DNA of 56,010 nucleotides from a virus: positions 1 to 56,010 of the IMG/VR virus record IMGVR_UViG_3300045282_000096. One strand, given 5' to 3'. Under the pieces are notes generated by a model that searched no databases, was not told where the DNA came from, and saw only the letters and a program-made list of their open reading frames with translations. The position numbers and the translations under genes were made by a program. Shown in pieces: positions 15,220-45,513 of this stretch (its first letter is position 1; each line of letters opens with the position of its first letter).

Positions 15220-15411
15220 ACTCGCTAAAAGTTTTGCGTTTATTGCTCGCTGCACACCATGTGCGCGATGCTACTTTTAGGAGTGCCTCTCCCTCTTTGA
15301 AGGCTACGCCGTGTCAATAGGCGTCTAACAAGACTGTCCAGCGGCCTACTGGACGACTGCGGGCCAATGATTGAGGACTAATCGACTATTGGAAAGAAGT
15401 CAAAGGAAATT

Positions 15412-22841: not shown

Positions 22842-23194
22842 TAAACGTGCCATCCTCCCCACTGTCGGTCAAAATGAATTCGGATCGGAAGGCATGGAAT
22901 TAAACAAACCCAAATCTCCAAATCGGAAGTTGAGCTTTCGTCCATTGGCAGAGTTTGTCGTCTCCAAAAAATACCAATCCATAAATCAGCAAGCTTCCAT
23001 TCTATCGCAACACTTGTTTTCCACGACCACCCATCAGTTCCGATACCAGGACCAAGGCCATGAATTCCCATTATTCTAAAAAGCCTCAATCGTTTCTCAT
23101 ACTTACTAAATCTTCCAACCCATTTGAACCTCCGCCAACCGCTTGGGCGTTTTGATGATGGGCGATGCTGATGCTGCGTCGTTTCTGTTTTCAT
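22841..23194 (-). CDS. Small hypothetical protein in the glycan cassette
   Basis: 117 residues, rich in Trp and Arg. The segments LADLWIGIFWRR and DLEIWVCLIPCLPIRIHF resemble a small protein that recurs in phages of this kind, apparently beta-rich. No signal peptide. Start ATG 23194 lies three bases after the stop of the glycosyltransferase-like gene. Function unknown. Confidence 0.6.
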   Translation of the reverse strand: MKTETTQHQHRPSSKRPSGWRRFKWVGRFSKYEKRLRLFRIMGIHGLGPGIGTDGWSWKTSVAIEWKLADLWIGIFWRRQTLPMDESSTSDLEIWVCLIPCLPIRIHFDRQWGGWHV

Positions 23195-23197
23195 AAA

Positions 23198-23884
23198 TTA
23201 AGTTCCAATCCCTCCCGCATAATAATTCTTCACTTTCGGCAACCGTGGACCAATGCTCAAAATGACTTCCGCCTCATAGCGACTGTCAATTGAATCAATA
23301 CCAGAGTCTTTGATACGCTGCCGCGTCATCACACTTGGAAGCGTTCTCAGAAACGAAGCGCGGACCCAGTAACAGGTGCCAGCGAAATAGAACTGGCTCT
23401 TGTCCCAACCTTGGTGTTCCAGCCAATGGCAACCCACCGCTTCATGGCCATTTCGTAAGTCCTTTACACACTGCCTCCAATCTTCAACGCAATGCTTCAT
23501 CATTCTTCGACGCCATGGAGTTGATGTATTTTTTCCGTAATCAGAATCGGGGCCGTGAGAAGCTCCTTTTGAGTGGAGCAGTAAAATGTAAGCCTCTCCA
23601 GCATGGGTTTTGCACCAGTCTTCGACCATCAGCAGCGTGCGAAGCTCATTACGGCACTGAGAGCCGTGATAAACAATTTTGGTCACTGGTGGAATTATTC
23701 CGGCAGCGTGTATGCTGTCGCTTTCATCTCCATTGATGCCAACGTGTATCTCGTAGGCGGCATCATACAGTCCACTCTCTTTCAATGCCTTCATTTGCTC
23801 GTGAACGATGGGACGAGAAGAAGGCAAATGCTTGCCGTCTATGTTGAACACCGCATGATAAAAAATTACGATAGGGTGACTCAT
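23198..23884 (-). CDS. Glycosyltransferase-like protein (nucleotide-sugar fold)
   Basis: 228 residues from ATG 23884 (TGATG overlap). Features: VIFYHAVFNIDG at the start, YEIHVGINGDES, LLLHSKGASHG, then a HCVEDWRQCVKDL helix and FYFAGTCYWVRASFLR. This order is that of GT-A-like proteins annotated in polysaccharide and rhamnan synthesis loci. A simple DxD is not evident. Acts with the next gene upstream, its probable partner in building the same glycan. Confidence 0.65.
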   Translation of the reverse strand: MSHPIVIFYHAVFNIDGKHLPSSRPIVHEQMKALKESGLYDAAYEIHVGINGDESDSIHAAGIIPPVTKIVYHGSQCRNELRTLLMVEDWCKTHAGEAYILLLHSKGASHGPDSDYGKNTSTPWRRRMMKHCVEDWRQCVKDLRNGHEAVGCHWLEHQGWDKSQFYFAGTCYWVRASFLRTLPSVMTRQRIKDSGIDSIDSRYEAEVILSIGPRLPKVKNYYAGGIGT

Positions 23885-24567
23885 CACGAACAATGAAAAT
23901 AAGGCACGCAAGATAATGTGTCGCCCACAATGAGTTGTTCTTGATTTGCATTATGGAACCCGCCAACAAGCGAATCACACTGATTGAGTGGCTTCACGTC
24001 ATTGAACGTTGCCACCCATGCGGACCTTCCAGTGTTAAGCACCCACGTCGTCAATCCCTCAGCACCGTGTTCGTAAGGATACCTTTGCGAGTTATCCGTG
24101 ACCCGAAACGGATGTTCGTTGATTAGTTTTGGCGAGCACCAAAAGCCAGTGGTTCTGATGTGAGGCCAAACCCTGACTTTTCCATCTCCCTGATTTCCGC
24201 TGGCCCCATAAAGCCCATCTCCAAGGCTCTGATAGACTTCAACCATTCGCCGCAACCATCCTGGTCCGCGAAAGTAAGTGCCTCCACCAAAGAACACCAT
24301 CAGATCACAGATCACATTCTGAGCCGCGTATTGGTAGCTGCCAATATCCATGCCAACGTTTTCACGAAAGAGAAACTTCGTGGGTTTGATTGGCGCGAAG
24401 ATTTTGTAAGCCTCTCCATTCGGACGACCGCCGTTGCTGACGACAATCATCATGTGATCCATCAGCGGCGGATTGGCCACATACGTGGACACGAAGCGTT
24501 CAGCAAGGCGTGCGTGTTGGGGGCCGAAGATAGGAACGGGATAATTATATATAACTGCGATCTTCAT
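23884..24567 (-). CDS. Glycosyltransferase-like protein, rhamnan-synthesis style
   Basis: 227 residues from ATG 24567. The N-terminus MKIAVIYNYPVP leads a Rossmann-like region; FRENVGMDIGSYQYAAQNV and DLMVFFGGGTYFRGPGWL are the characteristic pair of motifs of GT-like proteins found in O-antigen and rhamnan loci. The tail ends at a stop overlapping the next start. The upstream neighbour is an HNH-AP2 endonuclease whose stop is two bases away. Confidence 0.7.
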   Translation of the reverse strand: MKIAVIYNYPVPIFGPQHARLAERFVSTYVANPPLMDHMMIVVSNGGRPNGEAYKIFAPIKPTKFLFRENVGMDIGSYQYAAQNVICDLMVFFGGGTYFRGPGWLRRMVEVYQSLGDGLYGASGNQGDGKVRVWPHIRTTGFWCSPKLINEHPFRVTDNSQRYPYEHGAEGLTTWVLNTGRSAWVATFNDVKPLNQCDSLVGGFHNANQEQLIVGDTLSCVPYFHCS

Positions 24568-24568
24568 T

Positions 24569-25018
24569 TTAATTCGACCGCGCAAAATCTCCGTGATATT
24601 TCAAAACGGCTTCATTCCGAGCAGTTTTAGCCTCCTCAGGTGTTTTGAATGTTCCAAGATGGATGGTCTTCCCTTCGTGCCCAATATCTGCAACGTATTT
24701 ATTTCGCTTCTTCCAAAACCACACTCCTTTTACACCGAGTTTGTTCCTTTTTGTGACTGCTGTATTCCGAAGATTTTGTTTGTGGGTAACAATTCTCAAA
24801 TTGCATTTTCGGTTATCTAATCGGTTTCCATTGATGTGGTCCGTATCAAAACCATCGGGCGTGTTCATCACCACCCTGTGCATGTAAACAGATTTTCCGT
24901 TCGCGTTTCTATGGGCATATCCCTTGCCGACATAAGTCCAATGATACTGAGCAATTTTCTCAAAATCCTCATCATCAACGATTGCGACGTGACCCTTATT
25001 AAGTTCAATAACTTTCAT
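24569..25018 (-). CDS. HNH-AP2 homing endonuclease
   Basis: 149 residues. HNH core: YMHRVVM, DTDHINGNRLDNRKCNLR with the His-Asn pattern; followed by an AP2 DNA-binding domain (KGVWFWKKRNKYVADI, GTFKTPEEAKTARNEAV). A free-standing homing endonuclease of the type common in phages. It is fitted without gap into the operon (ATGA overlap upstream, two bases downstream), so it does not break the flanking genes. Confidence 0.88.
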   Translation of the reverse strand: MKVIELNKGHVAIVDDEDFEKIAQYHWTYVGKGYAHRNANGKSVYMHRVVMNTPDGFDTDHINGNRLDNRKCNLRIVTHKQNLRNTAVTKRNKLGVKGVWFWKKRNKYVADIGHEGKTIHLGTFKTPEEAKTARNEAVLKYHGDFARSN

Positions 25019-25209
25019 CGCACAGTCCTTATCAAAAGCTTAATGATGCAGTAGATTGAGATAGCAGCGCATATCCCCGCACACACAATGTAAAACGATT
25101 CGCTTTTCCAAGCGCGTTCGATTTTTAACGAGCACCACACGTAGGCGGCATAGACAATCAACACGAGTTGCTTGAAGATGCCGCGTTCTTCGTATTCGTC
25201 GTTGTTCAT
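25015..25209 (-). CDS. Small membrane protein
   Basis: 64 residues from ATG 25209. Two hydrophobic stretches: LVLIVYAAYVWCSL and FYIVCAGICAAISIYCIIKL, separated by a charged linker (KIERAWKSES). Possible holin or membrane anchor; no other evidence. TGATG overlap with the preceding gene. Confidence 0.6.
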   Translation of the reverse strand: MNNDEYEERGIFKQLVLIVYAAYVWCSLKIERAWKSESFYIVCAGICAAISIYCIIKLLIRTVR

Positions 25210-25409
25210 CAGTATCTCACCTTCCTCACCCCCGGCATTTTGAAATCGGAGATGACCGCTGTTCGACACTGAGACCCCCAATCAATCGTCGCATATTCAA
25301 GAGCCTGATGTGCGGTATCGGCAGCGACTTCACCAATAAGCTTCCAGTCCTTGTCACGCACGGCATAGACCTTCGTTGGGAATGCGGGGTTAACGAGTCG
25401 GGCGGTCAT
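25209..25409 (-). CDS. Small hypothetical protein (66 aa)
   Basis: 66 residues, mixed strand and helix (KVYAVRDKDWKLIGEVAADT). ATG overlaps the preceding stop by ATGA and its own stop overlaps the membrane-protein start. No recognised motif. Confidence 0.6.
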   Translation of the reverse strand: MTARLVNPAFPTKVYAVRDKDWKLIGEVAADTAHQALEYATIDWGSQCRTAVISDFKMPGVRKVRY

Positions 25410-25693
25410 GGAATAGGGCGATTCTTTCGAATTAAGTATTGAACGCTTTTTAGCTGCTCGGAAACATCATCTGGTAACACCCAAAAATCCGATATGGATG
25501 GGATTACTGGTATGATGTTAGAATTAAATATCAGGATTTCTCCACACTTCGCGCAACAAGAAAAGTCTCCCTCTCTGGGTCTGTGATCCCCGTCGGCGCA
25601 CGTTGCCGCATCCATGGCATATCCACACGTTGGACACGGTGTCTCTTTTATCACCGAACCATCCGCTGCCGTTCTGCACTTTTGAACACTCAC
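25406..25693 (-). CDS. Zinc-ribbon hypothetical protein
   Basis: 95 residues from GTG 25693. Cys pairs CPTCG and CCAKCG, with one extra Cys between, form a plausible zinc ribbon in the first half; the second half (FWVLPDDVSEQLKSVQYLI) is helical. GTGA overlap with the gene upstream. Function unknown. Confidence 0.6.
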   Translation of the reverse strand: MSVQKCRTAADGSVIKETPCPTCGYAMDAATCADGDHRPREGDFSCCAKCGEILIFNSNIIPVIPSISDFWVLPDDVSEQLKSVQYLIRKNRPIP

Positions 25694-25902
25694 GGCTTTT
25701 GCGCTCCAATCTTCGCAAGTATCTGCCTGCCGATTTTAGAGTTTATGTAAACCTCTTGGTATTTCTTCATCACACAAAATATCTGCGCGGATTTCAGTAA
25801 GTTGAAAGTGGCCACATCTCCATTATCCCAATTGACACGACCGTACGGTGAGAAGACTCGATACACTTCAAACACATGGTCCCAAAGTATGATGACATTC
25901 AT
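25690..25902 (-). CDS. Small hypothetical protein (70 aa)
   Basis: 70 residues from ATG 25902, chosen because it overlaps the glycosyltransferase stop by ATGA; the longer frame upstream lies inside that gene. Strand-rich start (MNVIILWDHVFEVYRVF) and helical, basic end. No function assignable. Confidence 0.55.
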   Translation of the reverse strand: MNVIILWDHVFEVYRVFSPYGRVNWDNGDVATFNLLKSAQIFCVMKKYQEVYINSKIGRQILAKIGAQKP

Positions 25903-27284
25903 GCCAGCATTTCCCCTGTCAATTCGTAGAAGGCTCCCGGTCGATGCAGTCTCGTGTTGGGATTTGCGGTCCATTCTTCGACTATCACATTTTTGTGAAG
26001 CCCATGGGCGATTGCCAGCGGCAAGCTTTGGTTTCCAATAAACAGTTTGCAGCCAGCAATTGCTTGAGCCAAATGCAGCGCGTTGTCTGTTTTCCAATAA
26101 GGCACTTTGCAATGTGGCGCTAATCCGCAAAACAGTCCATGCTCTAACTCGGTCCCAACAAACACCATATCATTGTGGTGCTTTTCAATCAGTCTTGGCC
26201 AGTTGAAATCGTGATTCAAATATCTCTGAGTCCGGTTGACCACGATGGGTCTTCCGCCAAACGGAATCGACTTTGGAACTGTCAACCACGGTTCCGTTGG
26301 CATCGGCAGGTTGAACGCATCCATGTGCAGCTTGAGGATTGAATCGTTGTCCTTGGCGCTGCGTTGCTTCCACGGAATGCGGAAGCGGTTAAGGTCGTAA
26401 TCTGTGCTAAAGGGAAAACCATGTGTGTATTGGACCTTCCAAATATATGGCTGCGCTTCGAATAGTGGCCGCAGATTGTCCATAAATTCAGGCGATCCGC
26501 CCGTCCGTGTCCATCGTGAGTCGAGTGGGTGGGGATAACGATTAAACGGCGTCAGGAATAGAACACCTTCGCCAAGAGCCTTGATGACTGGAAGTGCGTA
26601 CACGCAATCCCCCGCGTCCCCAGAATGGCAATAGACTTTGCACGGTTTCTTTTCTCGTGGAATAACCGAGAGCATCGAATGAAACCCGAAAGAATTGCTC
26701 CACTTGTTCGGTATGCCTTGCCATTCCTTCCCGTCATAAGCGCGTCCCTCAAACGACAAGCGACGAGCCAACGGAGCGGGCATGAACTTCATGCCTTGAG
26801 ATTCAAGGTCTTTTCTAAACCTCACCGATATTGCGGCGTCTTCAGCGTGGTCCTCGCCCTCGGGAAGCTTTGAGCAGGCCTCCATCAAACGCTTCGATCT
26901 AATTCCAAAACCGCCATTCCCCACCGTGTCACTTGGCTGGAATGGTGCCCCACCAAAGTCATACCGCAAGAATTCATCAGTCCACGATTCGGCATGAATC
27001 GGGAAACCGTCCCACTGGACAATCAATGCGTGAGATGTGCCCACATACTTATGAAGCTCTCGCATCATAAATTTGCTGTATCCATCAAGCCCTGTGATGC
27101 GTGGAATCTTTACCGCAAACGGTTGGGATAAATCGTGAGTGAGTAATTTAACAGCGGGAAACTCGCATTGCTCCAACGTCCTTTTAATTGCACGGCTCGC
27201 CAGATTCACTTTGTCAGTGCAATCAACCGAAATCAGAGTTGTGTCAAAAATATGAGTCACAAAGACAGGAGTAATTGTCCGCAA
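25899..27284 (-). CDS. Two-domain glycosyltransferase (DUF5672-like plus GT9/GT-B-like)
   Basis: 461 residues from TTG 27284. The N-terminal 200 residues carry the DUF5672-type signature: ALIVQWDGFPI, EFLRYDFGGAPFQPSD and VGNGGFGIRSKRLMEA. The C-terminal 250 residues look like a GT9-style acceptor/donor domain (VYCHSGDAGDCVYALPVIKAL, ending around CKLFIGNQSLPLAIAHGL). Such a fusion could attach two sugars in turn. The start is overlapped by an HNH endonuclease gene. Heads the glycan cassette. Which glycan and acceptor it uses cannot be read from sequence. Confidence 0.75.
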   Translation of the reverse strand: MRTITPVFVTHIFDTTLISVDCTDKVNLASRAIKRTLEQCEFPAVKLLTHDLSQPFAVKIPRITGLDGYSKFMMRELHKYVGTSHALIVQWDGFPIHAESWTDEFLRYDFGGAPFQPSDTVGNGGFGIRSKRLMEACSKLPEGEDHAEDAAISVRFRKDLESQGMKFMPAPLARRLSFEGRAYDGKEWQGIPNKWSNSFGFHSMLSVIPREKKPCKVYCHSGDAGDCVYALPVIKALGEGVLFLTPFNRYPHPLDSRWTRTGGSPEFMDNLRPLFEAQPYIWKVQYTHGFPFSTDYDLNRFRIPWKQRSAKDNDSILKLHMDAFNLPMPTEPWLTVPKSIPFGGRPIVVNRTQRYLNHDFNWPRLIEKHHNDMVFVGTELEHGLFCGLAPHCKVPYWKTDNALHLAQAIAGCKLFIGNQSLPLAIAHGLHKNVIVEEWTANPNTRLHRPGAFYELTGEMLA

Positions 27285-27781
27285 AATACCAATTCACTCA
27301 GAGATAATTCGCCTTTAGGTTCATTACATTTGGAACAAGCCTTGCAAACATTATCCGTGGTGTGATTTCCGCCTTTTGAGTAAGGAACAATGTGGTCAAC
27401 TTGAAGTTCCTGTGTCGGAAATTGCTTCTGGCAGTAGTAGCAATAAAAAGATGACTCATGCCTCCATTGAGTGATGATTCTGTTAAGTCTTTTGTCTCCA
27501 AATTTCTTTTTGTTGGCTCTAAGGTCATTTCTTTCTTTAGTTCTAGCCTTGTAAAGTTCTGGATTCTTTTTCTTGTATTCCCGTTCCCAATTTACCGAGT
27601 ATCCTGGATTTTTGTCCCGCCACCGTTTCTTTGCGGCCCTTCTTAAACGGATTCTTTCCGACACTGCCTTTGGGCCTGCCGCCAAGTTGTCCATTCTTTC
27701 TAACAGCGGCTCTCTTGGCAGCAGACGTGGAACTTCCACCCTTCCGGCCAATTCTGGACAGATAGGCTGAAATTGTTCCAT
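27257..27781 (-). CDS. HNH endonuclease, N-terminus probably frameshifted
   Basis: The intact HNH core is in this frame: YCYYCQKQF, QVDHIVPYSKGGNH, TDNVCKACSKCNEPKG. The first 35 codons look unlike a protein. A second frame (27543-27821) encodes instead a typical N-terminus (LSRIGRKGGSSTSAAKRAA, then NGQLGGRPKG) that leads into this frame around 27660-27690. The joined protein would need a +1 shift. So the gene may be frameshifted, carry a base error, or be two overlapping genes. It sits between a coiled-coil gene and the glycosyltransferase, overlapping the latter by 28 bases. Confidence 0.65.
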   Translation of the reverse strand: MEQFQPICPELAGRVEVPRLLPREPLLERMDNLAAGPKAVSERIRLRRAAKKRWRDKNPGYSVNWEREYKKKNPELYKARTKERNDLRANKKKFGDKRLNRIITQWRHESSFYCYYCQKQFPTQELQVDHIVPYSKGGNHTTDNVCKACSKCNEPKGELSLSELVFCGQLLLSL

Positions 27782-27822
27782 TCGTGCTCATATTACCTAA
27801 CCCGATTTGGTTGTCAAGCATT

Positions 27823-28209
27823 TCATTTCACTGCCATGGATTTATATTCCCCCAACACCTCACTAAACGTCCCTGTCCTGAACGCGCTGAGAACTTTAAC
27901 CAACCTTGGAAGTGTTGAATTGATTGCGCGGTGGTAGGCAGCAGCATACGCATCAGCTTTGTCCTTTTCCTTCGCCGCTGTAATTTCAGCAGAGCGAATC
28001 TTGCCCTCAAAGGACTCGCGTTGATAGCCAGTCAGTTTCGACTGCATTAGCTCAAACCGAAGTGCCTCACATCTTCCGAACTTCTCTTTGACCTTTTCCG
28101 CAAGCTCCTGCGACTTCTTTAGCTTCCGTTCAGCCATGCGCTTCGTGCGGTCGATGGCGGCGATGATTTCATCCTCAGTGCGCCACACCTTTGGCCTGCG
28201 AGAATTCAT
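27823..28209 (-). CDS. Charged coiled-coil hypothetical protein
   Basis: 128 residues, very rich in Lys, Glu and Arg, with long coiled coil (RMAERKLKKSQELAEKVKEK onwards). ATGA overlap with the upstream gene. Likely a structural or assembly factor; no motif recognised. Confidence 0.65.
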   Translation of the reverse strand: MNSRRPKVWRTEDEIIAAIDRTKRMAERKLKKSQELAEKVKEKFGRCEALRFELMQSKLTGYQRESFEGKIRSAEITAAKEKDKADAYAAAYHRAINSTLPRLVKVLSAFRTGTFSEVLGEYKSMAVK

Positions 28210-28517
28210 TTCTTCAACCTTTCAAGCAGTGCATCAGCCATCTGGCAACATCTTGCAGCGAGGTCTTCCTGTTCGGCATCCAATGGAAACTGTCTATTAT
28301 CGCCATACGAGGCTAACCAACCCTGCATTGCAGCCATTGCGAATCGTTCACGTTTCGTCATGCCCATTGAGAACCAAATCGTAGGTTCTCCGCTTTCAGT
28401 TTTACCAACCTCCACTTGCATTGGATGAGCGGGGCCACCTCCGTATGTAGCCATCTTCTGAAACATATCAGCCATCGCTTTGCTCTGCTCTGATGGGGTG
28501 GGGGTTTCGTTTGTCAT
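28206..28517 (-). CDS. Conserved small phage protein
   Basis: 103 residues from ATG 28517 (ATGA overlap with the preceding stop). The motif MTKRERFAMAAMQGWLAS, followed by AARCCQMADALLERL, is a frequent pattern in small phage proteins of unknown function often placed near early or terminase genes. No membrane segment. Confidence 0.65.
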   Translation of the reverse strand: MTNETPTPSEQSKAMADMFQKMATYGGGPAHPMQVEVGKTESGEPTIWFSMGMTKRERFAMAAMQGWLASYGDNRQFPLDAEQEDLAARCCQMADALLERLKK

Positions 28518-30107: not shown

Positions 30108-30322
30108 GAGCAAGTGAGGCTATAAAAAAGCTTGAAGAAGCTATTAAAAAATACGGCGATCTCCACATTTGGGCTGATAGTGGAATGACCTATTATCAAG
30201 AGGCTGACGATGCCAGTGCGCTAATCTTTGAAGATGGAAGATTGCGGTTCAGCAGCCAACATGATGATGATTCTACGCCACCTGCTTCAACTGATGCGCC
30301 TCCCTCAACTTCTGGCTCTTAG
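30104..30322 (+). CDS. Small hypothetical protein converging on terL
   Basis: 72 residues from ATG 30104 (ATGA overlap). An amphipathic helix (EAIKKLEEAIKKYGDL) is followed by an acidic Ser/Pro-rich tail. The tail overlaps the last 50 bases of terL on the other strand, which may explain its low-complexity end. Convergent overlap with no terminator visible. Confidence 0.55.
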   Translation: MRASEAIKKLEEAIKKYGDLHIWADSGMTYYQEADDASALIFEDGRLRFSSQHDDDSTPPASTDAPPSTSGS

Positions 30323-32126
30323 CCGCAAGGTCGTCAAGCCATCTCATATCCCTTCGAATCAGCGTCTTGTTGGCTAGTGTGCCGATGACAAATCCACGTC
30401 GTCGTGCGCCTTCAATTCCAATTGCAGCCATATCCGCCAAGTCGGGGCTGCAACCCGTTCGTTTCTTCATCACGTCCTTTGGCTCAATCTCCATTCTGTC
30501 GCCAGCAACTTTATACCACTCACGCGGATGAGCGTCGGCCACAATGTCACGCTGCATACCGCGAATCTGGTCGGCTTGTGTTGCGTAAAGCCAACTAAAC
30601 CACAATTCGGATACAAACTTTGAGTAGTGCTCGTTGCACAATTTCAACCGCTTTTGTTTACTCTCTTTATCAATCGTGTAAATGTCGCCACCAACAGGGC
30701 GATTAGTAGCTGGCCCACCAAACTCAACGGCATTCACCCTGGGACTCCAGACTGCGGCCATGGCCATTGCAAAACTTCCGCGACCGTCAAAAAAGAAATT
30801 CTCTGGAGGCACTCCAACTTCTTCCATCTTGGCCTTGGTAAACATCGCGATCTGATATTCTGGTGATACCTCGGGGTTGACGATGATTGGCACCAACCAA
30901 TACTGGTTGAATTTGATTCTTATTTTCCCGTCAACGCATTTTCCAAATTCCAGCCAACCGACAGGACAACGATCACCACCTCCGTAAGAAGCGTCCACCA
31001 TTCCGATCTTGGTTGTTGGTGCCCCTTCCCAAATTAAATCCTGAAATGCACTGAACTGTTCGCAGATTTCAGGTGTGATAATTTTGAATGCCGCCAGTCC
31101 GAACTTGAAAGACCCACGACCTTGTGACCAATACGATTCAGATCCTTCGGTGTATGCGCCAAGTTTGTTTGGACCGGCAAGATGAGGCCACCGTGGATTA
31201 TCAACCGGATACGGAGTATTTGGAGAATCCATGGCGTCCAAATTGATACACACGCATTGAACGGGATGGTTTATGAGCTTCTTGCACTTCCAAACCTTCG
31301 TCTTGCCGTCTTCTTTGATGGAACCCCAACCATGCTCCGGTTCGGAAACAACATCGGTGGGATTGCCTGGTCGAGATGGATTGGTATTAGCAATGAAAAT
31401 ACACTTGTAACCACGTAGCGGCTTTCCAACTTCGGGACTATCCTTGTCAGTGATAACTCCGGGAACCAAATTTGGCCCGTTGCTGATGAGATTGTCTTGT
31501 GCGTTTAATATCGCCAACTCCATGAACTGAAATTCATCGGCAATACACCACAGACGACGGTTTTTGCGTCCAGAATAAGCGCCCATACCCACAAACTTTC
31601 CAGTGGAGGCTTTGCACGGAACGCCAACAATTGAATCACGAAGGTCGCGTGCAAGTTCTTCTGCAATGTTTCCATTAGTGATGACGCACTTGCTGTCGAT
31701 GGGATTACCGGGAAACCATGGGTGCAGCATTTTTGCCGAATGCCACATCTTGGTTGTCTCAGCGTAAATGCGCTGCCGAAGCTCGTTCATTGTGGTTGAG
31801 CTTTGCAGGACGGTTGTGCATTCAGGGAAACACGACCAATCCATGAGTGCGATACGTGAGACAGTTCCAGTCTTCCAACTTGAGGCTGGCCCAACCAACG
31901 ACACGAATTGATTTTCAAGAATGGTTTTGAGAATTAAATCCGTCCACCACGTCTGAGAATCATCTGGCCAAAGCAGTTTCCAGTATTCCTTGAAATGAAA
32001 CATCAATCCGTTGCCAACCTTAACCCCTTTGTATTCAAAAAAACCTCCATCTTGGATTAAAGTTCTTTCGATCTGAGCGTCAGTAACCTCATCGCTCCAA
32101 TTTACGCCATACTTTTCACGCGGCAT
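30273..32126 (-). CDS. terL: Terminase large subunit
   Basis: 617 residues from ATG 32126; upstream frame to 32300 lies inside the divergent tail gene and is rejected. The packaging ATPase: an adapted Walker A GPASSWKTG (79-87), the Walker B strand with LWCIADEFQFM, and a C-terminal nuclease-like domain with VDASYGGGD and FDGRGSFAMAMAAV and MKKRTGCSPDLADM. The usual Gly before Lys in the P-loop is Trp here. No small terminase is recognised. Only about 40 bases separate it from the divergent plus-strand tail gene; AGGAGG lies 14 bases upstream. Confidence 0.88.
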   Translation of the reverse strand: MPREKYGVNWSDEVTDAQIERTLIQDGGFFEYKGVKVGNGLMFHFKEYWKLLWPDDSQTWWTDLILKTILENQFVSLVGPASSWKTGTVSRIALMDWSCFPECTTVLQSSTTMNELRQRIYAETTKMWHSAKMLHPWFPGNPIDSKCVITNGNIAEELARDLRDSIVGVPCKASTGKFVGMGAYSGRKNRRLWCIADEFQFMELAILNAQDNLISNGPNLVPGVITDKDSPEVGKPLRGYKCIFIANTNPSRPGNPTDVVSEPEHGWGSIKEDGKTKVWKCKKLINHPVQCVCINLDAMDSPNTPYPVDNPRWPHLAGPNKLGAYTEGSESYWSQGRGSFKFGLAAFKIITPEICEQFSAFQDLIWEGAPTTKIGMVDASYGGGDRCPVGWLEFGKCVDGKIRIKFNQYWLVPIIVNPEVSPEYQIAMFTKAKMEEVGVPPENFFFDGRGSFAMAMAAVWSPRVNAVEFGGPATNRPVGGDIYTIDKESKQKRLKLCNEHYSKFVSELWFSWLYATQADQIRGMQRDIVADAHPREWYKVAGDRMEIEPKDVMKKRTGCSPDLADMAAIGIEGARRRGFVIGTLANKTLIRRDMRWLDDLAAKSQKLREAHQLKQVA

Positions 32127-32166
32127 TGAAGTTGACGATACCTCCTGACAGGTCCACAGTCGAGAT

Positions 32167-33060
32167 ATGTCCGACTTAGCTGGATGCTGCCCGGTTTGCC
32201 AATCACAGATAGCCCCCTTATCCATACCGGGGCCGCAAGGTCCAGCGGGAAGTAATGGTGCTGCTGGGACTAATGGAACTTCCGCAACAACTATAACCAC
32301 CGCTCAGTTCGGACCGACTCCCGGTGACACGACTACGGCCTTTAGTATTTCAGTGGCAAGCTCCGTCATGTTCGTCGTAGGCACTGACATTATCGTTGGT
32401 CAAGGGCCGGGTGCGGTGCTCGCAAATCCGGGTCCATGGTCGGGCATCATCACAGCGATACCATCTCCGAATACAATCACGGTCAAGAATCTCAGAACAG
32501 TTGACCAAGGATTGACGGTAAGCAGCGGCGCGTTGGTTGCGCCGATTGGGTTTCTGCCAGCAGTGCCGTTGACAATCGCGCAAGGCGGCACCAATGCAAT
32601 TACGAAGGCTGCGGCTCAAATCAGTTTAGCATTGGGGCAAGATTCAGTGGTGTCCAGTGGTGCTGCACTTGCTCAGGCAATCACTGCGGCAAGTCTTCAG
32701 GTTGGAGCAATAGATGTTCAATTGCCAGCGGGTCTTCTTGGAACTGGCGCTTTGCAATTGCGTGGGTTTGTTTCTATAGACATGGCCGCAGTTACTTTCG
32801 CGGCAGCACCAAGAACAATTACTGTCACTATTCGAAATATCACTCAAGCTTTGAACATTGTGAGCGGAGTTCTCCACACACAAAACACAGCAGCAGGAAG
32901 TTTTCCAACTCATTTCTTAGTCATACCACCATTCAAATACACTGCTGGCGTTGCCGGGGACCATCTACAACTTTTCATTTTGGTCGATGTTGCGATCACT
33001 GGAGGCGCGTTGACGGTCGATGCGGGTAGCCTTGAGGCAGTGCCACTTCGGTTGAGTTAA
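32167..33060 (+). CDS. Collagen-like tail protein
   Basis: 297 residues. N-terminal Cys pair (CCPVC), a short collagen-type Gly-x-y run (PGPQGPAGSNGAAGTNG), then a repetitive strand region and a C-terminal beta-sandwich domain ending EAVPLRLS. Trimeric collagen-like fibres with such heads are common in phage adsorption apparatus. First gene of the plus-strand tail operon. Confidence 0.75.
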   Translation: MSDLAGCCPVCQSQIAPLSIPGPQGPAGSNGAAGTNGTSATTITTAQFGPTPGDTTTAFSISVASSVMFVVGTDIIVGQGPGAVLANPGPWSGIITAIPSPNTITVKNLRTVDQGLTVSSGALVAPIGFLPAVPLTIAQGGTNAITKAAAQISLALGQDSVVSSGAALAQAITAASLQVGAIDVQLPAGLLGTGALQLRGFVSIDMAAVTFAAAPRTITVTIRNITQALNIVSGVLHTQNTAAGSFPTHFLVIPPFKYTAGVAGDHLQLFILVDVAITGGALTVDAGSLEAVPLRLS

Positions 33061-33677
33061 TGAGTGCCAGAAAGATAAATCCAAATAGAGATAATCGAAA
33101 AGTCTTTCCGCATTGTTTGATTCCCAAATCTGGAAAATGCGGTGTCTACGGAATTATATGCAATTCTGACGGCAGACTTTACGTAGGCGGTGCTAAAGAT
33201 TTATATGACCGCTATTCCACCCATAAGTATAAGCTGAATAAAAAAGAGCACTGCAATCGGTATCTTCAACAATTGCATAATGAAAATCCCGAGTGTTTGG
33301 AGTTTTTCGTCATTGAGGAAATACGCGACGCTTCAACACTTAGAGAGCGGGAACAATTCTGGATGGATTTCTACCAATCTTACCAGATTGAACATGGCTT
33401 CAATATCAATCCAAATTCCAAATCTCCGTTGGGATTTAAGATGACAGAAGAAGGAAAGGCAAAAATTGGAGCCGCTCATCGAGGCGTGCCAAATGTCAAA
33501 TGCTCTAAGCCCGTAACGCAGTGGTCGTTGGACGGTAAAGAATTGAAAACTTTTCCATCTTCATCCGAGGCAGGCAGGCAATTAGGAATGCCCATATCGG
33601 CAGTCAGTCATTGCCTTCAAGGAAAGTCCAAAATAACACACGGATTCAAATGGACTTATGCCGCCCCCACAATCTAG
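33060..33677 (+). CDS. GIY-YIG homing endonuclease
   Basis: 205 residues. The nuclease module is clear: GVYGIICNSDGRLYVGGAKDLYDR (GIY...YVG with the catalytic Arg), then a helical linker. C-terminal DNA-binding part contains a NUMOD3-like segment (MTEEGKAKIGAAHRG) and a final region (QWSLDGKELKTFPSSSEAG) of the kind that contacts target DNA. TAATG overlap with the collagen-like gene; overlaps the next gene by 20 bases. Free-standing, as Seg-type enzymes are. Confidence 0.85.
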   Translation: MSARKINPNRDNRKVFPHCLIPKSGKCGVYGIICNSDGRLYVGGAKDLYDRYSTHKYKLNKKEHCNRYLQQLHNENPECLEFFVIEEIRDASTLREREQFWMDFYQSYQIEHGFNINPNSKSPLGFKMTEEGKAKIGAAHRGVPNVKCSKPVTQWSLDGKELKTFPSSSEAGRQLGMPISAVSHCLQGKSKITHGFKWTYAAPTI

Positions 33678-35748
33678 CCAGTTTTCGGCAAACACAATTT
33701 TTGATAGTCTAAGCGGCTTCGATGCGGGAATGAACGCAGGCATCTCGCCGCTTTTACTTCCGCGCAATCAACTCGCATGGGGGTCCAATCTCACCACTCG
33801 CGGTTCGTTAATTCACCCCCGACCACCACGACGGATTCTCACGCTCAATTTTCCAAGTCAGGCGATTCAAACGGCAGTCACTAAAGGACTGTATCAGGGC
33901 AGCACATATTATAAGCCCGACGCAGGTAGTGAAACACTCGTAGCTTCAATTGCGGGGCGATTGTATCAGTTTACGCCCATCGGCACCGTCGCCACTGTCA
34001 CCGACATTACTGGGGGCAATCCACAGAGTGCTACAGCCCTTCAAGCGTGGTTGATTCAGGCAGAGAACTATGTGATTTGGAATGATGGGATTAACCTTCC
34101 GGTGTTTTTTAATGGGACGACGACTGCTCGTTCAAACGGCACTCCTGCGCCTTCTCCAACTTTCACAACTTTGACTAAGTTTTTCATTCCGGGAGGTTAC
34201 AATATCCTTTCCAATCCGCCTCCACCCCCACCGAACATCACAATAAATCTCACCAGCAATTTCACTGGAGCAAATGGCGATCTATTCGTTATCAACGGAG
34301 GAAGCACGTTGGCAATCTCTGGAACCGTGCTCAATGGGGCCGGGACTCCAAACATTCAAGTTACTCTCAACATAATCACCCCTCTCGCCATTCCGGTTGC
34401 GGCGGGATCGATATTAACCTCTCCACCAACAGTAGCCGTTCGCCAATTCCCCATTGGCCGAATGATGGCCTACGGTCGTGGTCGTGTTTGGATGGTGTTG
34501 GCCAATGGCAAAGACTTCATCGCTGGCGATATTGTCCACGGACCAAGCGGAACCAAAGCTCTTGATTATCGGGATTCGATTCTGAACGTCACCGAGAATG
34601 ATTACCTTGTCGGAGGTGGGATATTCACCGTGCCGGGTTCCATTGGTGACATTAAGGCAATCATCTTCACCGCTCAATTGGACGTTGCTCTTGGCCAAGG
34701 GCCGTTGATGATTTACACGCCAACCCACGTCTTTAGCTGTAATGCACCGATAGACCGACTGACATGGCAATCGCTGACCAATCCCATTCTCACTGAGGCA
34801 GCAATCGGCAACGGTGGCCTTGGTCAGAACAACACTTACATCGTCAACAGTGACACTCATTCGCGTTCGATGGATGGGATTCGTTCGTTGATTCTTTCAA
34901 CTCAAGATTTCAACAGTTGGATTAGAACCCCAATCAGTCATGAAGTTGAGCGCGTGTTGAGCCGCGACAATCAGGCGTTGCTGCAATATGGCAGCGGAGT
35001 TTTCTTCGACAATCGCACGCTGATGACCGCCAGCCCGATTTCAACTCCTCAAGGTGTTTATTTTCAGGCGTTAATTGCACTCAACACGGATTTGATAACG
35101 ACAGTGAGGGACAAGCATCCACCCGCTTACGATGGGGTTTGGCCGGGGATGAACATTTTCCAAATTCTCATCGGGCAATTCTCACTGGTGGAGCGTTGTT
35201 ATCAATTTGTGTATAACTCAGTGCTGGCCACAACCGAGCTTTGGGAATTGATGCCATCGGCAGCCGCAGATGTTCAGAATCAAAATAACCTGCCAATCAT
35301 CGGAGACAACGGTGTGCAGGCAATAGAATGGTGGTTTGAGTCCCCAACTATTTTCAGAGAAACCGATCCGGCACGCAGGACGTTCAAAAGTTTGGTCAAT
35401 GGCGAAATCATGGTGGATAACTTGATTGGGAGAGTTGATTTTCAGGCGTTTTACAAACCCGATCAATATCCGTGTTGGATACCATGGCTCAATTGGAGTG
35501 AATGTGCTGTGAAGAATGCGGGTACTTCGACTGACATAAATAAACCCCAGTTTCGTCCGAGGATGGGCATGGGTTCACCCTCATCAACGCCCTGCGATCC
35601 GTCCACTAACAGGCCGCTCAATCAAGGCTACTCGTACCAGTTCAAGTTGGTGGTGACAGGTCAATGTGAATTTATAGGAGCACGGTTTGCGGCGGTAATT
35701 ATTCCTGAGGCTACGTTCGCAAAGCCTGCGTGCGATCCAATTTGTTGA
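33658..35748 (+). CDS. Large tail / stabilisation-type structural protein
   Basis: 696 residues. Begins with an FDAGMNAGISPLLLPRNQLA segment seen in tail proteins of similar podovirus-like genomes, followed by a long strand-rich body with a proline-rich insert (NPPPPPPNITI) and a late beta domain. Size and context (between fibre-type and connector-type genes) suggest a tail tube, nozzle or stabilisation protein. No enzymatic motif. The role is inferred. Confidence 0.65.
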   Translation: MPPPQSSQFSANTIFDSLSGFDAGMNAGISPLLLPRNQLAWGSNLTTRGSLIHPRPPRRILTLNFPSQAIQTAVTKGLYQGSTYYKPDAGSETLVASIAGRLYQFTPIGTVATVTDITGGNPQSATALQAWLIQAENYVIWNDGINLPVFFNGTTTARSNGTPAPSPTFTTLTKFFIPGGYNILSNPPPPPPNITINLTSNFTGANGDLFVINGGSTLAISGTVLNGAGTPNIQVTLNIITPLAIPVAAGSILTSPPTVAVRQFPIGRMMAYGRGRVWMVLANGKDFIAGDIVHGPSGTKALDYRDSILNVTENDYLVGGGIFTVPGSIGDIKAIIFTAQLDVALGQGPLMIYTPTHVFSCNAPIDRLTWQSLTNPILTEAAIGNGGLGQNNTYIVNSDTHSRSMDGIRSLILSTQDFNSWIRTPISHEVERVLSRDNQALLQYGSGVFFDNRTLMTASPISTPQGVYFQALIALNTDLITTVRDKHPPAYDGVWPGMNIFQILIGQFSLVERCYQFVYNSVLATTELWELMPSAAADVQNQNNLPIIGDNGVQAIEWWFESPTIFRETDPARRTFKSLVNGEIMVDNLIGRVDFQAFYKPDQYPCWIPWLNWSECAVKNAGTSTDINKPQFRPRMGMGSPSSTPCDPSTNRPLNQGYSYQFKLVVTGQCEFIGARFAAVIIPEATFAKPACDPIC

Positions 35749-40344: not shown

Positions 40345-43300
40345 GTGGCATTCAATTTCACAGAAGAAGACTTCGCGCCGAAAAGTAAGTTCGATTTCAC
40401 TGAGGAGGATTTCAAACCAAGTGGGTTGCCTAAGTTTTCGTCAGACCTTGCCTTAATTCCACCCACTGAACAGGACACTCAGGAAGCTCTAGCGCAGTCA
40501 CATCCACTCACCGCACTCAGTAAACCGATAGTTAATCTCATTCCCAAAATCGGTCAGGAAACAATGGGAAGGATTTTGTCTCTGCCTGCTGCATTGGCCC
40601 GTCAGCGCATTGAGGAAACTCCAGACGAAATAATTGAGACTCCAGAAGGTTCAACAGCAGTCGCTCCAAAACAGCCCGCCCTTGAAGCTGTGGCCAAGGC
40701 TGTTCCATCAGACAAGGCTGTAGCTGTTGCAACAGGCGTTCAGCACGCAGCAGCGGACACTGCTAACTTTTTCACCTCACCAATCGGAATAGCCACACTT
40801 GGAATTGGATCGCTTCCTGCGGCAGTGGGAAGAACGGTTGCATTAGGATTTGCCGCACAAATGGCTAAAGATGTTCCAGAAATTGCCAAACAATTGGGGG
40901 AAGAACTTGGCAAACCAGAAGACCAACGCGATTACGAAAAGATTTCAGAACTGACAGCCAATGCCGTGGCTAACACCACGTTTGTGGGATTGGGTGTTAA
41001 GCACGGACTGGCTGAACCCGTTGCTGGAAAATTAGGAGCGTTACCAAGTGAACAAACCGCAGTTATACCGACTGCACAACCAAAGGAAGAAAATGCCAGC
41101 ACTCAGCAAAAAGCAGCAGAAATTTATGGCGATGTGTTACCACAACCCCGGCAGGGCGAAGGGGAAGTGCCCATCAAAGAAGGTGAGTCACGAGTTCAGT
41201 TACAAACCGAAGGGGGGATACAAAAAGAAGTAACACCTGCCACCACTCTCGAAAATGTAATCCGCGATCCAAATGCAAAGGCCAACAACCATAACTCGAC
41301 TGAGGCTGGAATGGCCGTTAAGTCAGTCGATGACTTGGAGAAATTAGCTGCACTTCGTGAACAGCTTTACAAAGAACGCCAAGACCTTTTGGAACAGGTG
41401 AGGACTGAAACCGATCCTGCCAAAAAAGAGTCGCTGATGAATCAGGCGTTGATTCTGTCCAACAAGCTACAGCTACCACGCGAGGCGATTGAAGTCGCAA
41501 CCAATACTGGAGGATGGGCGGAAGAAGCTGGCAAGACAGAACTTGGCGAGCGTCCTCTTGATTGGAAGAAAAATCCCGAAGTTGCTAATTGGTTGGAGAA
41601 GAATTCAAAACGCATTGGCACTTCCTTTGAACGACCAAAAGAAGCCGCTCCCACTGAAACAGTTCTCGCATCCCAAACAACACCCACTCACGGCCTTCCC
41701 GTTGGAGTCCCTGACCGTGGACCGACTTTCGCCGCTGATTTGATGGAGGCATCTCGTCAACTTGGCGCTCTCGTCCGTAGTCGCGCCACACTTCGTCCGG
41801 GTGTTCTTGGCCAATTCGTTCGCACCAAACTCGCTGGCATCAAACAGGCCGACAAAATTGAAGTTGGTGACATTCGAAATCAAAACACCGTCGCCCACGA
41901 GATTGGTCATAGCCTTGATGGAATTTTGTGGCCGCAAATTAACTTCGGTGAGAGCCAAAAGAGTTTGGCTGCGCGGGTTGGCACCGGCACGCCAAAAGAA
42001 ATCACCTCAGAACTTACCAAAGTAAGTGAGTTGATGCGTGGACCAATGACCGGCAGCAAAGGACACGTTGCCTATCGCAAACGTGCTACCGAATTGATTG
42101 CCGATTACTTCTCACTCTACGCGCACGACCGCGACCGTGCTGCGGCCATGGCTCCGAAGTTCACTAAAGGGTTTGAAGCGTCATTGGCAAAAGACCAAAA
42201 CACTGCTGATGTGGTGAAAGGTGTCGTCAGTGGTAATGTCATTCCCAAACCACCAGACCCCACGCTCAAGAAGCAACTGGCGGGTATCACTGGCACTCCA
42301 CCACAACCTGGAACGGCCTTGCCCGGACAAGTTCCAGCAGCGCCAGTCCTTCCACCTCCAGCGCGAGAGCGTGTAGCGGCAGTTGCCGCCGAAGGATTGG
42401 TGAAAGATGCGGTCAGAACATTCGAGTCCAAAGTTCAAAAGGCACGCATCGTTGGCGATAACTGGAGAAAGTTGGTTGGAAGCCAATCAGACCGTAATGA
42501 CGTTGGCGCTTTTGTTGAAGGCATCGGCAATTTGGAGAAACCCGGTGACACCATCGACCGCGTTCGAACAAGAATGACTCCAGACAAGGAACGATTGGCC
42601 AAAGACTACCGTTTTCGTCAGGAGTTGGAGCGTCAGGAGATTAACAAATATCTCAAGGACAGTGAGGAAGGTGAGTACCTTAAATTCCTTGAAGATTATC
42701 TTGGCCACTTCTATGTGGACAACGCGGCCAAACGTCAGGCCGCAGTATCACGTTGGGCTAAAGAATCTCCGCACGCAAAGCAACGCAAGTTGCCCACGTT
42801 GAAAGAGGCGGTTGACATGGGACTCACCCCCATCACTCAAGACCCTGCCGTGACTTACGAATTGAATTCACGAATCAACTGGCAGGTGGCTACAAACCGT
42901 AAATTCGTTGCGAAGCTCAAGGACATTAAGACTGGCGCTGGTCAGGACGTTGTTGTTCCGGCGAAGGACGCTCCTGCTGGATGGGAAGTCACCAACAATC
43001 CACTCATCCAACGAGTGTATGCCCGACAAACTCCCAGTGGTTTGATGCTGTGGCGGGGTGGCGCGGCAATTCACCCTGACATTTGGCGTTCTGCCCGTCA
43101 GATTTTGGAAGCTCCACAATCAGGCGACTTGGGAAAAGCTTATGATGCTATCAATGGGTTCACACGAGCAAATGCGTTTGCCTTCTCACTATTCCACGAC
43201 CTTACACTCAGAAGTGCCGCCGTTGGATCGCAATCGACCTTGGCTAATCCACTGCGAGGATTGGTTCGTTTATTCGAACGTCACCCAATCACCGGAGAAC

Positions 43301-44715
43301 GCCAAGTGTTTGTTTCAACCCGTGGACTTGGAAAAGAGCTTTTACAAAATGAAGAAGCTGTTTCTGACGCCGCCGAACACGGATTGAAATTCTCCTACAC
43401 CGATAGCGAAGCCTATCAACACAACGCCCGCACATTTCTTGAGAAGAACGCCGCACGATTACGCGATGTTCCCGTTCTTGGAAAAGCAACACGGCTCGCA
43501 CGCGACATTCAGCAATGGCGTCAGGAAGGGTTGTGGAAAAACACTCACGATGCGTTCAAAATTATCACCTACAACGATATGGTTTCCAAAGCATTGGATG
43601 GCGCACCACCCGGAACTGATGTAAAGGCTGTCAAAGAGAACATCGCATCATTTTTGAACGACGCTTATGGCGGTCAGGAATGGCAAACCAAGTTTTGGTT
43701 GGACCCCGGCACGAGAAAAGTGCTGTCGAGATTCTTCCTTGCTCCCGACTGGACGCTTTCCACCCTTCGCAGCGTCCCTGGATTATCTGATGTTGCCTCG
43801 ACCGTGCGAGAGCAGGCACCTCGCATTGCCGGTAGAGAATCGTTTCCAACACCAAAGGAAGGTCTTGCTGGCGCTGGCAAACGACTCCGCTTTTGGGGCA
43901 CCGAAGTTGCAGCCTTGGCAATGGCTACTGCCGCCGCTCAATACGCAATCTACAAAGCGTTTGGCGACGACAAGAAAGGAGACAAGGCTTTTCCATGGGA
44001 CAATGAGTTGAATCAGAAGATGCGTGTCGATGTGACGCCGCTGATGAGGAAACTTCCATGGGCCGATCCTAAAGACCCAACACGTCACTATGTCAACCTT
44101 GGCAAGCGACCACAGGAGATTCTCAATTGGTTCACCGAACCCGACAAGCAAGTGTTGTCCAAAGCGTCTCGTCCAGTTGCCATGATATTCGAGCAGGTGA
44201 CGGGCAGCGAGGGCGATTTCAAAGCGCCGTGGAAACAAGACCACGAAAGTTTTATGGAGAGCCTCCCATCACGCGCCAAGGCCATTGGCACTGAGGCGTT
44301 GCCGTTTACCTTTCGTGGAAATCAATTCGCGCTCTCTGCCCCCGTTCGCAAGGGCATGACCAAATACAAAGCACAGCAGGCTTATGAAAGCGTGTTCGAA
44401 CTGGCGACCAATCCCAATCGGATTAAATCTCTGTTGCGTGGCCAGCAACCGTCAGAAGGCACGTTGTCTGAAATGACCAGTCAGATCACCGACGCCGCCA
44501 AACGCAACGGTGTGCCTGCCGAAGAAGTGTTAAAGCGTTCGCTGTCGGTTGTTCGCGGTCATCATTATGACGAATTTTTCAAGGCGTTCAGTAAAGGCGA
44601 CCGCAAGAAGATGGATGAGGAAGCGAAAGCACTCATCACACTTGGCGCAACCGGGCGTGGAATTGAAGAATCAGTTAAGCGCCGGTTGGAGTTGCAGCCG
44701 GTGGCACCTGAGTGA
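40345..44715 (+). CDS. Giant internal/ejection protein with HExxH metallopeptidase motif
   Basis: 1456 residues from GTG 40345. N-terminus has a short repeat (FNFTEEDFAPKSK, FDFTEEDFKPSG); hydrophobic segments near 130-175; then a region around 500-600 with NTVAHEIGHSLDG (His518, Glu519, His522) and ATELIADYFSLYAHDRDR, which could supply the third ligand as in gluzincin-type zinc peptidases. A Pro-rich linker (PPQPGTALPGQVPAAPV) follows and the rest is mainly helical. Such giant proteins are ejected with the DNA and may cut cell wall or host proteins. The motif is from pattern. Mini-ORF ATG 40335 precedes the true start. Confidence 0.75.
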   Translation: MAFNFTEEDFAPKSKFDFTEEDFKPSGLPKFSSDLALIPPTEQDTQEALAQSHPLTALSKPIVNLIPKIGQETMGRILSLPAALARQRIEETPDEIIETPEGSTAVAPKQPALEAVAKAVPSDKAVAVATGVQHAAADTANFFTSPIGIATLGIGSLPAAVGRTVALGFAAQMAKDVPEIAKQLGEELGKPEDQRDYEKISELTANAVANTTFVGLGVKHGLAEPVAGKLGALPSEQTAVIPTAQPKEENASTQQKAAEIYGDVLPQPRQGEGEVPIKEGESRVQLQTEGGIQKEVTPATTLENVIRDPNAKANNHNSTEAGMAVKSVDDLEKLAALREQLYKERQDLLEQVRTETDPAKKESLMNQALILSNKLQLPREAIEVATNTGGWAEEAGKTELGERPLDWKKNPEVANWLEKNSKRIGTSFERPKEAAPTETVLASQTTPTHGLPVGVPDRGPTFAADLMEASRQLGALVRSRATLRPGVLGQFVRTKLAGIKQADKIEVGDIRNQNTVAHEIGHSLDGILWPQINFGESQKSLAARVGTGTPKEITSELTKVSELMRGPMTGSKGHVAYRKRATELIADYFSLYAHDRDRAAAMAPKFTKGFEASLAKDQNTADVVKGVVSGNVIPKPPDPTLKKQLAGITGTPPQPGTALPGQVPAAPVLPPPARERVAAVAAEGLVKDAVRTFESKVQKARIVGDNWRKLVGSQSDRNDVGAFVEGIGNLEKPGDTIDRVRTRMTPDKERLAKDYRFRQELERQEINKYLKDSEEGEYLKFLEDYLGHFYVDNAAKRQAAVSRWAKESPHAKQRKLPTLKEAVDMGLTPITQDPAVTYELNSRINWQVATNRKFVAKLKDIKTGAGQDVVVPAKDAPAGWEVTNNPLIQRVYARQTPSGLMLWRGGAAIHPDIWRSARQILEAPQSGDLGKAYDAINGFTRANAFAFSLFHDLTLRSAAVGSQSTLANPLRGLVRLFERHPITGERQVFVSTRGLGKELLQNEEAVSDAAEHGLKFSYTDSEAYQHNARTFLEKNAARLRDVPVLGKATRLARDIQQWRQEGLWKNTHDAFKIITYNDMVSKALDGAPPGTDVKAVKENIASFLNDAYGGQEWQTKFWLDPGTRKVLSRFFLAPDWTLSTLRSVPGLSDVASTVREQAPRIAGRESFPTPKEGLAGAGKRLRFWGTEVAALAMATAAAQYAIYKAFGDDKKGDKAFPWDNELNQKMRVDVTPLMRKLPWADPKDPTRHYVNLGKRPQEILNWFTEPDKQVLSKASRPVAMIFEQVTGSEGDFKAPWKQDHESFMESLPSRAKAIGTEALPFTFRGNQFALSAPVRKGMTKYKAQQAYESVFELATNPNRIKSLLRGQQPSEGTLSEMTSQITDAAKRNGVPAEEVLKRSLSVVRGHHYDEFFKAFSKGDRKKMDEEAKALITLGATGRGIEESVKRRLELQPVAPE

Positions 44716-44852: not shown

Positions 44853-44876
44853 CCGCGCTACCACTCAGTAGCGCGG
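44853..44876 (-). terminator. Hairpin with T run, minus strand
   Basis: CCGCGCTAC (44853-44861) pairs perfectly with GTAGCGCGG (44868-44876) around CACTCA. On the minus strand the hairpin is followed by TTTTTATA, an intrinsic terminator form. On the plus strand there is only a weak T run, though A's precede it, so it may also stop late plus-strand transcripts after 44715. It lies directly before ATG 44845 of the small minus gene. Confidence 0.6.
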
Positions 44877-45119
44877 ACTGTTGCTTTCCCTCTATGCACA
44901 CCGTTCTTCTATGACTAGACGGTTGGAGACTCTCAAATAAATCCTCGCCTATCAAGCATTTTGTTCTTGCAATTTGCGCCATGATTTTGTAACAATTCGT
45001 TGCAGTGATTCCGGCCATTCACAAAATCACTTTTACCGAGCACCGTATCTTGCGGGGGCGCTACTTCGATTGCGCTTTCTCCCTTGGCCGGGATAGATGC
45101 GGTGTCTCGGGAATTTTAT
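44877..45119. other. Non-coding stretch before the tRNA
   Basis: About 240 bases between the hairpin and the tRNA. No convincing ORF on either strand. No clear -35/-10 pair is seen; the sequence just before the tRNA (around 45090) has no consensus. A short inverted repeat CCGT/ACGG is present near 44905. Probably leader or promoter region for the replication operon. Confidence 0.4.
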
Positions 45120-45219
45120 GGGCGAGTAGCTTAATTGGTAGAGCGCAGCGGTACTTAATGCGGGAGAAATCCGCAAGATTCCGGTGCGGTTACGGGTTCG
45201 AATCCCGCCTCGTCCACCA
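45120..45219 (+). tRNA. tRNA with 24-base insertion in the anticodon loop
   Basis: All parts of a class I tRNA are in place: acceptor GGGCGAG with CTCGTCC (one G-U), A and encoded CCA (45217-45219); TA; D arm GCTTAATTGGTAGAGC; G26; anticodon stem CAGCG (45146-45150) with CGGTG (45182-45186, one G-G mismatch); variable CGGTT; T arm ACGGG-TTCGAAT-CCCGC (last pair open). The loop between the two stem strands is 31 bases instead of 7, that is exactly 24 extra (100 against 76). The insert holds the hairpin TGCGG-GAGAAAT-CCGCA (45159-45175). The anticodon cannot be assigned without knowing the mature loop. The gene precedes the replication operon. Confidence 0.7.
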
Positions 45220-45237
45220 TTTACAGAAAGGACCACC

Positions 45238-45513
45238 GTGACCCTCGCTGAACGCGACCGCAAACTCAAATGCCTCGAAGACATTCTCGAACAACCTCGC
45301 AACGATCAAAACGTAGTAGCCGTCGCGCTGTTCAAAATCTGGCACGACGCGCTGTGGGAAGTGTCCGACGACAGCTTTGATGAATTCACACAGAACGAAT
45401 TCGAGATGAGCGAGGTTGATGCGTTCATCATTATGAAAGCTGCGGCAAGCGCCGGTCAATTTCCTGAGTATGAAGCGGAGAAGATTAACGCGGAATTTGA
45501 AAGGTTGGGATGA
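45238..45513 (+). CDS. Small hypothetical protein, start of the replication operon
   Basis: 91 residues from GTG 45238, with AGAAAGGA seven bases upstream. Mostly helical and acidic (ERDRKLKCLEDILEQ, SDDSFDEFTQNEFEMSE). The first gene after the tRNA. No motif recognised. Confidence 0.65.
   Translation: MTLAERDRKLKCLEDILEQPRNDQNVVAVALFKIWHDALWEVSDDSFDEFTQNEFEMSEVDAFIIMKAAASAGQFPEYEAEKINAEFERLG

Follow-up and report, generated by a model that had tools for sequence, protein, structure and literature searches.

A phage tRNA-like element with a predicted two-tier hairpin in place of the anticodon arm and a core alanine identity set

The tRNA-like locus and its surroundings

The DNA analyzed here (the window) is a whole IMG/VR virus record of 56,010 bases. 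A tRNA-like element was detected on its plus strand (Table 1), and the position and base count given for it in a first-pass annotation were confirmed by two programs. In Rfam, the tRNA family (RF00005) matched at 45120-45216 with 42.3 bits and was the only family above threshold; 37 nt between the two sides of the anticodon stem were omitted from this alignment, compared to 13 in the model. When introns were allowed, ARAGORN modeled a tRNA-Ser(act) of 76 bases interrupted at 37/38 by a 24-nt insert. The 31-base loop with 24 extra bases that had been read from the sequence is present. By contrast, ARAGORN did not find the element at 45120-45219 under default settings, and such genes may therefore be under-counted.

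The element is ordered GGGCGAG-TA-GCTTAATTGGTAGAGC-G-CAGCGG TACTTAA TGCGG GAGAAAT CCGCA AGATT CCGGTG-CGGTT-ACGGG TTCGAAT CCCGC-CTCGTCC-A-CCA. The frame of a canonical elongator tRNA (7-bp acceptor, D arm, T arm and CCA) was found with one T-stem mismatch, and acceptor pair 3-70 is a G-U pair formed by bases 45122 and 45213. The earlier claim that all tRNA arms fit held for the acceptor stem, D arm, five-base variable loop and CCA, but not for the proximal stem at the anticodon position (4/5 pairs of the anticodon-type stem, G29-G41 mismatch) or for the T stem (4/5 pairs, A49-C65 mismatch). The canonical seven-base anticodon loop with U33 and a purine at 37 is absent, and the 31-base region is instead predicted to form an extended hairpin.

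Table 1. Features of the tRNA-like element and its immediate neighbors (window coordinates)
Feature	Position	Strand	Basis
tRNA-like RNA gene, 100 nt including encoded CCA	45120..45219	+	Rfam tRNA; ARAGORN with introns
Acceptor stem, 5' side GGGCGAG, pairs with CTCGTCC at 45209-45215 (7/7)	45120..45126	+	pair probabilities 0.97-1.0
D arm, GCTTAATTGGTAGAGC	45129..45144	+	sequence; Rfam alignment
Proximal (anticodon-position) stem CAGCGG, pairs with CCGGTG at 45181-45186, G-G mismatch	45146..45151	+	pair probabilities 1.0
24 bases extra relative to a 76-nt tRNA (ARAGORN 'intron' AATGCGGGAGAAATCCGCAAGATT)	45157..45180	+	ARAGORN
Distal hairpin TGCGG-GAGAAAT-CCGCA	45159..45175	+	pair probabilities 0.87-1.0
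Variable loop CGGTT, five bases	45187..45191	+	sequence
T arm ACGGG-TTCGAAT-CCCGC, A-C mismatch at 49-65	45192..45208	+	sequence; Rfam; ARAGORN
Discriminator A73 and encoded CCA	45216..45219	+	sequence
Small ORF, GTG start after AAAGGA, 20 nt downstream of the element	45240..45513	+	sequence; 45184-45513 with first possible start
Terminator-like hairpin just upstream of the element	45088..45110	+	3 found vs 1.4 expected, weak

The small ORF downstream of the element had no Pfam match. Upstream, the tRNA-like gene is separated from a strong inverted repeat (44853-44876) by about 240 bases without an obvious gene (44877-45119). Large proteins encoded at 30273-32300, 18233-20359 and 13570-15255 on the minus strand, and at 33658-35748 and 40345-44715 on the plus strand, are likely to be structural, judging from their position (terminase, portal or capsid type). 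Pfam and PHROG matches were not found for these five proteins, and the phage seems to come from a divergent lineage. Near the structural genes, an 854-residue protein (8447-11011, minus strand) matched alpha-galactosidase families (Melibiase_2, Melibiase_C), and a minus-strand cluster at 21184-28500 encodes a radical SAM protein (21756-22862), a methyltransferase-like protein, a DUF5672 protein and an HNH/AP2 homing-type endonuclease (24569-25018).

As tRNA genes are common integration sites and the encoded CCA points to a gene of bacterial origin, an integrating ancestor might have left the element behind as an attachment-site copy of a host tRNA gene. We consider this origin very improbable: attachment copies usually keep one end whereas the whole gene is present here, including its 5' half; an integrase was not seen among the searched part of the proteome; and pattern searches of genomes did not find a host tRNA with the same insert.

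Fold of the middle and readings that restore an anticodon

The five-pair hairpin noted earlier at 45159-45175, which has a seven-nucleotide loop, was recovered by fold prediction as the distal part of a single extended two-tier arm, made up of the proximal stem, a 7x5 internal loop and the 5-bp hairpin. A class II-like reading, in which the distal hairpin would serve as the anticodon arm, was rejected, as it was 4.1 kcal/mol worse than the extended arm in a comparison of three models, all of which placed the T stem one base off such that only the difference is meaningful. The distal hairpin by itself was not unusual (25/200 shuffles were equally stable). By comparison, 2/200 shuffles of the whole 100-mer were equally stable (z -2.28), and of 3,000 dinucleotide shuffles of the 47-nt middle, 2.1% were as stable, 8% had an in-register stem and 0.17% had both. 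In the fold preferred by these models, a longer two-tier hairpin takes the place of a normal anticodon arm. This continuous hairpin and the lack of an anticodon loop support the earlier proposal that the molecule is not an adaptor.

The geometry of the distal hairpin, with five well-predicted pairs and a seven-base loop, could nonetheless suggest a decoding tRNA with an elongated arm, in which GAGAAAT would present GAA (Phe) followed by A37. Position 33 of this loop is A, however, while the U33 position is occupied by T in 1,047/1,093 ordinary phage tRNAs drawn from the loci searched. In addition, the extra helix would put the distal-loop anticodon far from the decoding site, and the acceptor carries alanine identity, which argues against a Phe reading. 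Decoding from the distal loop was rejected on the basis of A33, and we regard it as hardly credible.

A second way to obtain an anticodon would be a real tRNA with a 24-nt anticodon-loop intron removed by protein machinery, as ARAGORN models with an insert of exactly this length at 37/38. To examine this, all eight contiguous 24-nt excisions that give a seven-base loop were compared. The resulting anticodons were ACU, AAU or GAU, with U33 in six of the eight; every excision left U37, a base found in only 22/1,093 ordinary phage tRNAs, and in most of them G32-C38 could pair across the spliced loop. The ACU reading would yield a serine tRNA without a long variable arm, and because serine tRNAs cannot have a five-base variable loop, the Ser(act) identity does not fit. 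An intron leaving a usable spliced loop was thus rejected. Bulge-helix-bulge introns are cut in 3-nt bulges separated by a 4-bp helix and leave a functional anticodon loop. By contrast, the predicted cut in the element falls in the large 7x5 internal loop and all spliced loops have U37. Thus, the element resembles archaeal and eukaryal protein-spliced tRNA introns in having extra bases at or near 37/38, but differs from them in having neither a usable spliced anticodon loop nor a bulge-helix-bulge, and in residing in a phage. Given these features, together with a class I body of alanine acceptor identity, the earlier suggestion that the insert is removed was left unsupported.

Two other loci do resemble genuine 37/38 insertions and lend the intron reading some plausibility. 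One is tRNA-Gly(GCC) plus 44 nt (L095, a gap-70 element) and the other tRNA-Arg(TCT) plus 20 nt (L283, G437:C47:4916-4985, minus strand). Both inserts start with GAAC and end with GTTCNGGA, and, from their sequences, they may represent a class of small tRNA introns present in phages or bacteria. The insert in the window has neither this start nor this end, and overall we judge an intron at this locus to be improbable.

Anticodon-less tRNA frames in viral contigs

Viral contigs were searched for GGTAGAGC and GGTTCGAATC separated by 43-70 bases (the spacing is 26 in common class I tRNA), and at least 120 stretches were found. Matches were filtered for at least 6/7 acceptor pairs and at least 4/5 T-stem pairs, and decoders were removed, chiefly from a tRNA-Ile(tat) family whose variable arm is long. 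Among the matches listed, this left about 70 distinct viral elements without an anticodon, possibly including a few class II decoders, and a stricter scan gave 47 distinct valid elements that partially overlap the first set. By this approach, tRNA frames in which the acceptor and T stems are perfect and the middle has no anticodon were found in dozens of IMG/VR contigs. In many of them, as in the window element, position 26 and a five-base variable loop are kept and the anticodon arm is replaced by an unrelated longer hairpin. The window element itself has the required acceptor and T-stem pairs, a spacing within 43-70 nt from GGTAGAGC to GGTTCGA and no decoding arm. Rfam release 15 assigned only 'tRNA' to the class elements tested.

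A cluster with a gap of 42-46 and the motif TTATACC was removed from the class, as it proved to be ordinary tRNA-Ile(tat) with a long variable arm. This class II-like arm, often with CAGATTA in its loop, is an unusual shape for an isoleucine tRNA and was observed in L012, L037, L045, L064, L078, L092, L115, L297 and others.

The anticodon-less design is rare in genomes. The pattern occurred in 5/388 Verrucomicrobiota and 4/296 Bacteroidota, with several of the matches being adjacent ordinary tRNAs, and most genome matches were set aside as class II tRNA-Ser or archaeal intron tRNAs. An element from a Verrucomicrobiales MAG (L188) adjoins tRNA-Gly and a short ORF that, judged by eye, looks like an excisionase; the motif TTAATG, common to L188 and the window element, was dismissed as a sign of kinship, being within chance expectation.

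Several families recur among the viral elements. Family a, which is apparently widespread, consists of frames with middles of 61-72 nt that contain ACAGCAA or GTTCCT (L073, L077, L004, L022, L051, L023, L038, L028, L044, L050, L094, L281, L282 and others). Family b, with a GGTGAAGGACC middle, comprises L042, L081, L137 and L003. In these four sequences only, 11/23 pairs were changed on both sides compared to 4.3 in shuffles, a value reached by 0/500 shuffles; 96.7% of cells pair, and the changed pairs lie in the acceptor, T and replacement helices. Family d, with a AAAAGGAGTGCAAAT middle, was found in at least nine contigs, five of which (L292, L293, L299, L311 and L321) carry elements of 117 nt each, with about 90% aligned identity and mostly unalignable flanks. 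Taken across families b and d, element identity is 90-100% where the neighboring DNA diverges or fails to align, which by sequence comparison means constraint or transfer as a unit. The covariation in family b and the conservation in families b and d indicate that a phage tRNA frame can be maintained as an RNA even when it lacks an anticodon.

BLAST clustering of the middles linked the window element to none of families a, b and d. A homolog of it was likewise not found in phage records searched by DNA and by two proteins, in viral contigs searched with two element-specific patterns and two protein scans, or in genomes searched with a D-arm-specific pattern. Since no homolog was detected, support for selection on the window element, including its hairpin and G3-U70 pair, comes by analogy with the class.

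The single copy without a detected homolog is also what would be expected of the main rival explanation, in which the element is a decaying phage tRNA pseudogene, now inert, whose anticodon arm was broken by a small insertion or rearrangement. The mismatches in the anticodon-position and T stems would suit a decaying gene, and mobile elements often carry tRNA fragments and remnants (PMC9897764). By contrast, the acceptor stem is fully paired, the D arm is intact and CCA is encoded; only 0.17% of shuffles match the middle in both stability and register; and dozens of phage contigs carry elements of the same general design, some families of which are conserved. We therefore view decay as unlikely, while taking it seriously.

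Published descriptions of such a class of phage frames were not found in the literature searched, which covered few subscription papers, so that this absence is weak evidence for novelty. A 2020 review of non-canonical tRNAs leaves phages unmentioned (PMC7609411). The phage tRNAs described as evading tRNA-targeting defenses are decoding tRNAs (PMC10264068, PMC11555353). The window element is probably one of a broad range of phage RNAs that have apparently gone undescribed.

Alanine identity and a possible role without decoding

The acceptor end of the element has, beside G1-C72, the core alanine identity set of G2-C71, G3-U70 and A73 (45121-45122, 45213-45214 and 45216). The identity set of bacterial alanine tRNA is A73, G2-C71, G3-U70, G4-C69 and G20 (PMC9976931); of these, G4-C69 is absent from the element (C4-G69), and G20 is probably absent (U20 by D-loop alignment). 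Among ordinary phage tRNAs, G3-U70 was present in 33/38 alanine compared to 9/898 non-alanine tRNAs. In tests made after the pattern had been noticed, and with uncorrected p values, G3-U70 was found in 7/70 anticodon-less elements among the matches listed (6/69 minus one Ser-type decoder; Fisher p = 0.0003), while in the strict scan GGG acceptors had G3-U70 and G3-C70 at 10:29 compared to 1:22 among non-alanine tRNAs that share the flanking identity (p = 0.04), or at 7:10 compared to 1:22 when family a was left out (p = 0.006). The enrichment is modest in the stricter comparison, and it could reflect descent from alanine tRNAs. An unusual middle, G3-U70 and A73 occur together in L348, L341, L087, L055, L062, L147, L346 and L188, of which L341 is read by ARAGORN as tRNA-Leu and may decode.

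Judged by its sequence, the locus is a tRNA frame that is missing the anticodon loop, carries an alanine identity core and has many similarly built counterparts among phage RNAs. We find it moderately probable that it encodes a non-decoding class I tRNA mimic in which the anticodon arm has become a two-tier hairpin and which the host may charge with alanine. Expression, charging and function of such a mimic are what we infer from these features. The element would be transcribed with or beside the small genes downstream, the next start being 20 bases on, and its transcript would be trimmed by tRNA-type end processing. Host alanyl-tRNA synthetase (AlaRS) could then alanylate it through G2-C71, G3-U70 and A73, since AlaRS needs no anticodon, as for tmRNA, which is charged through G3-U70 and A73 despite having none (PMC3968760). 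As the element cannot decode codons, it would act through proteins that bind the acceptor end or elbow (AlaRS, EF-Tu or tRNA-directed defense enzymes) as a decoy, sink or amino-acid donor, and the extended hairpin may serve as an optional binding arm. The decoy proposed in the first-pass annotation, one for host anticodon nucleases, fits poorly; such enzymes are an unlikely target because the element lacks the part of a tRNA that they recognize. A better fit is a decoy for enzymes binding at the acceptor end or the elbow.

Phage tRNA genes are usually explained by decoding. If correct, a broad non-decoding set, conserved and covarying in part, would show another use of the tRNA body, as a stable carrier or as a mimic directed at proteins that bind tRNA, and the G3-U70 mark predicts alanylation without an anticodon. 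More tentatively, phages may widely encode anticodon-less frames as natural scaffolds, with a subset that includes the window element being charged with alanine and interfering with, or feeding, alanyl-tRNA processes such as translation rescue, tRNA-directed defense or amino-acid transfer; in this general form we hold the idea possible rather than probable.

Stable non-tRNA phage RNAs with tRNA-like features have a precedent in species 1 and 2 of the T4 tRNA cluster. Similarly to tmRNA, the window element is tRNA-like, has no anticodon, carries G3-U70 and A73 alanine identity and has a helix at the place of the anticodon arm. By contrast to tmRNA, it has a complete D arm rather than a reduced one, is 100 nt long, has neither a tag reading frame nor pseudoknots and is classed by Rfam as tRNA. 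It shares a phage-encoded tRNA frame and an altered anticodon region with the defense-evading phage tRNAs, but those (PMC10264068, PMC11555353) keep a seven-base loop and decode, whereas the element has no anticodon loop. In topology it matches the engineered tRNA scaffold, in which a foreign hairpin replaces the anticodon arm within a tRNA frame; unlike that scaffold, the class to which the element belongs is natural and occurs in phage genomes.
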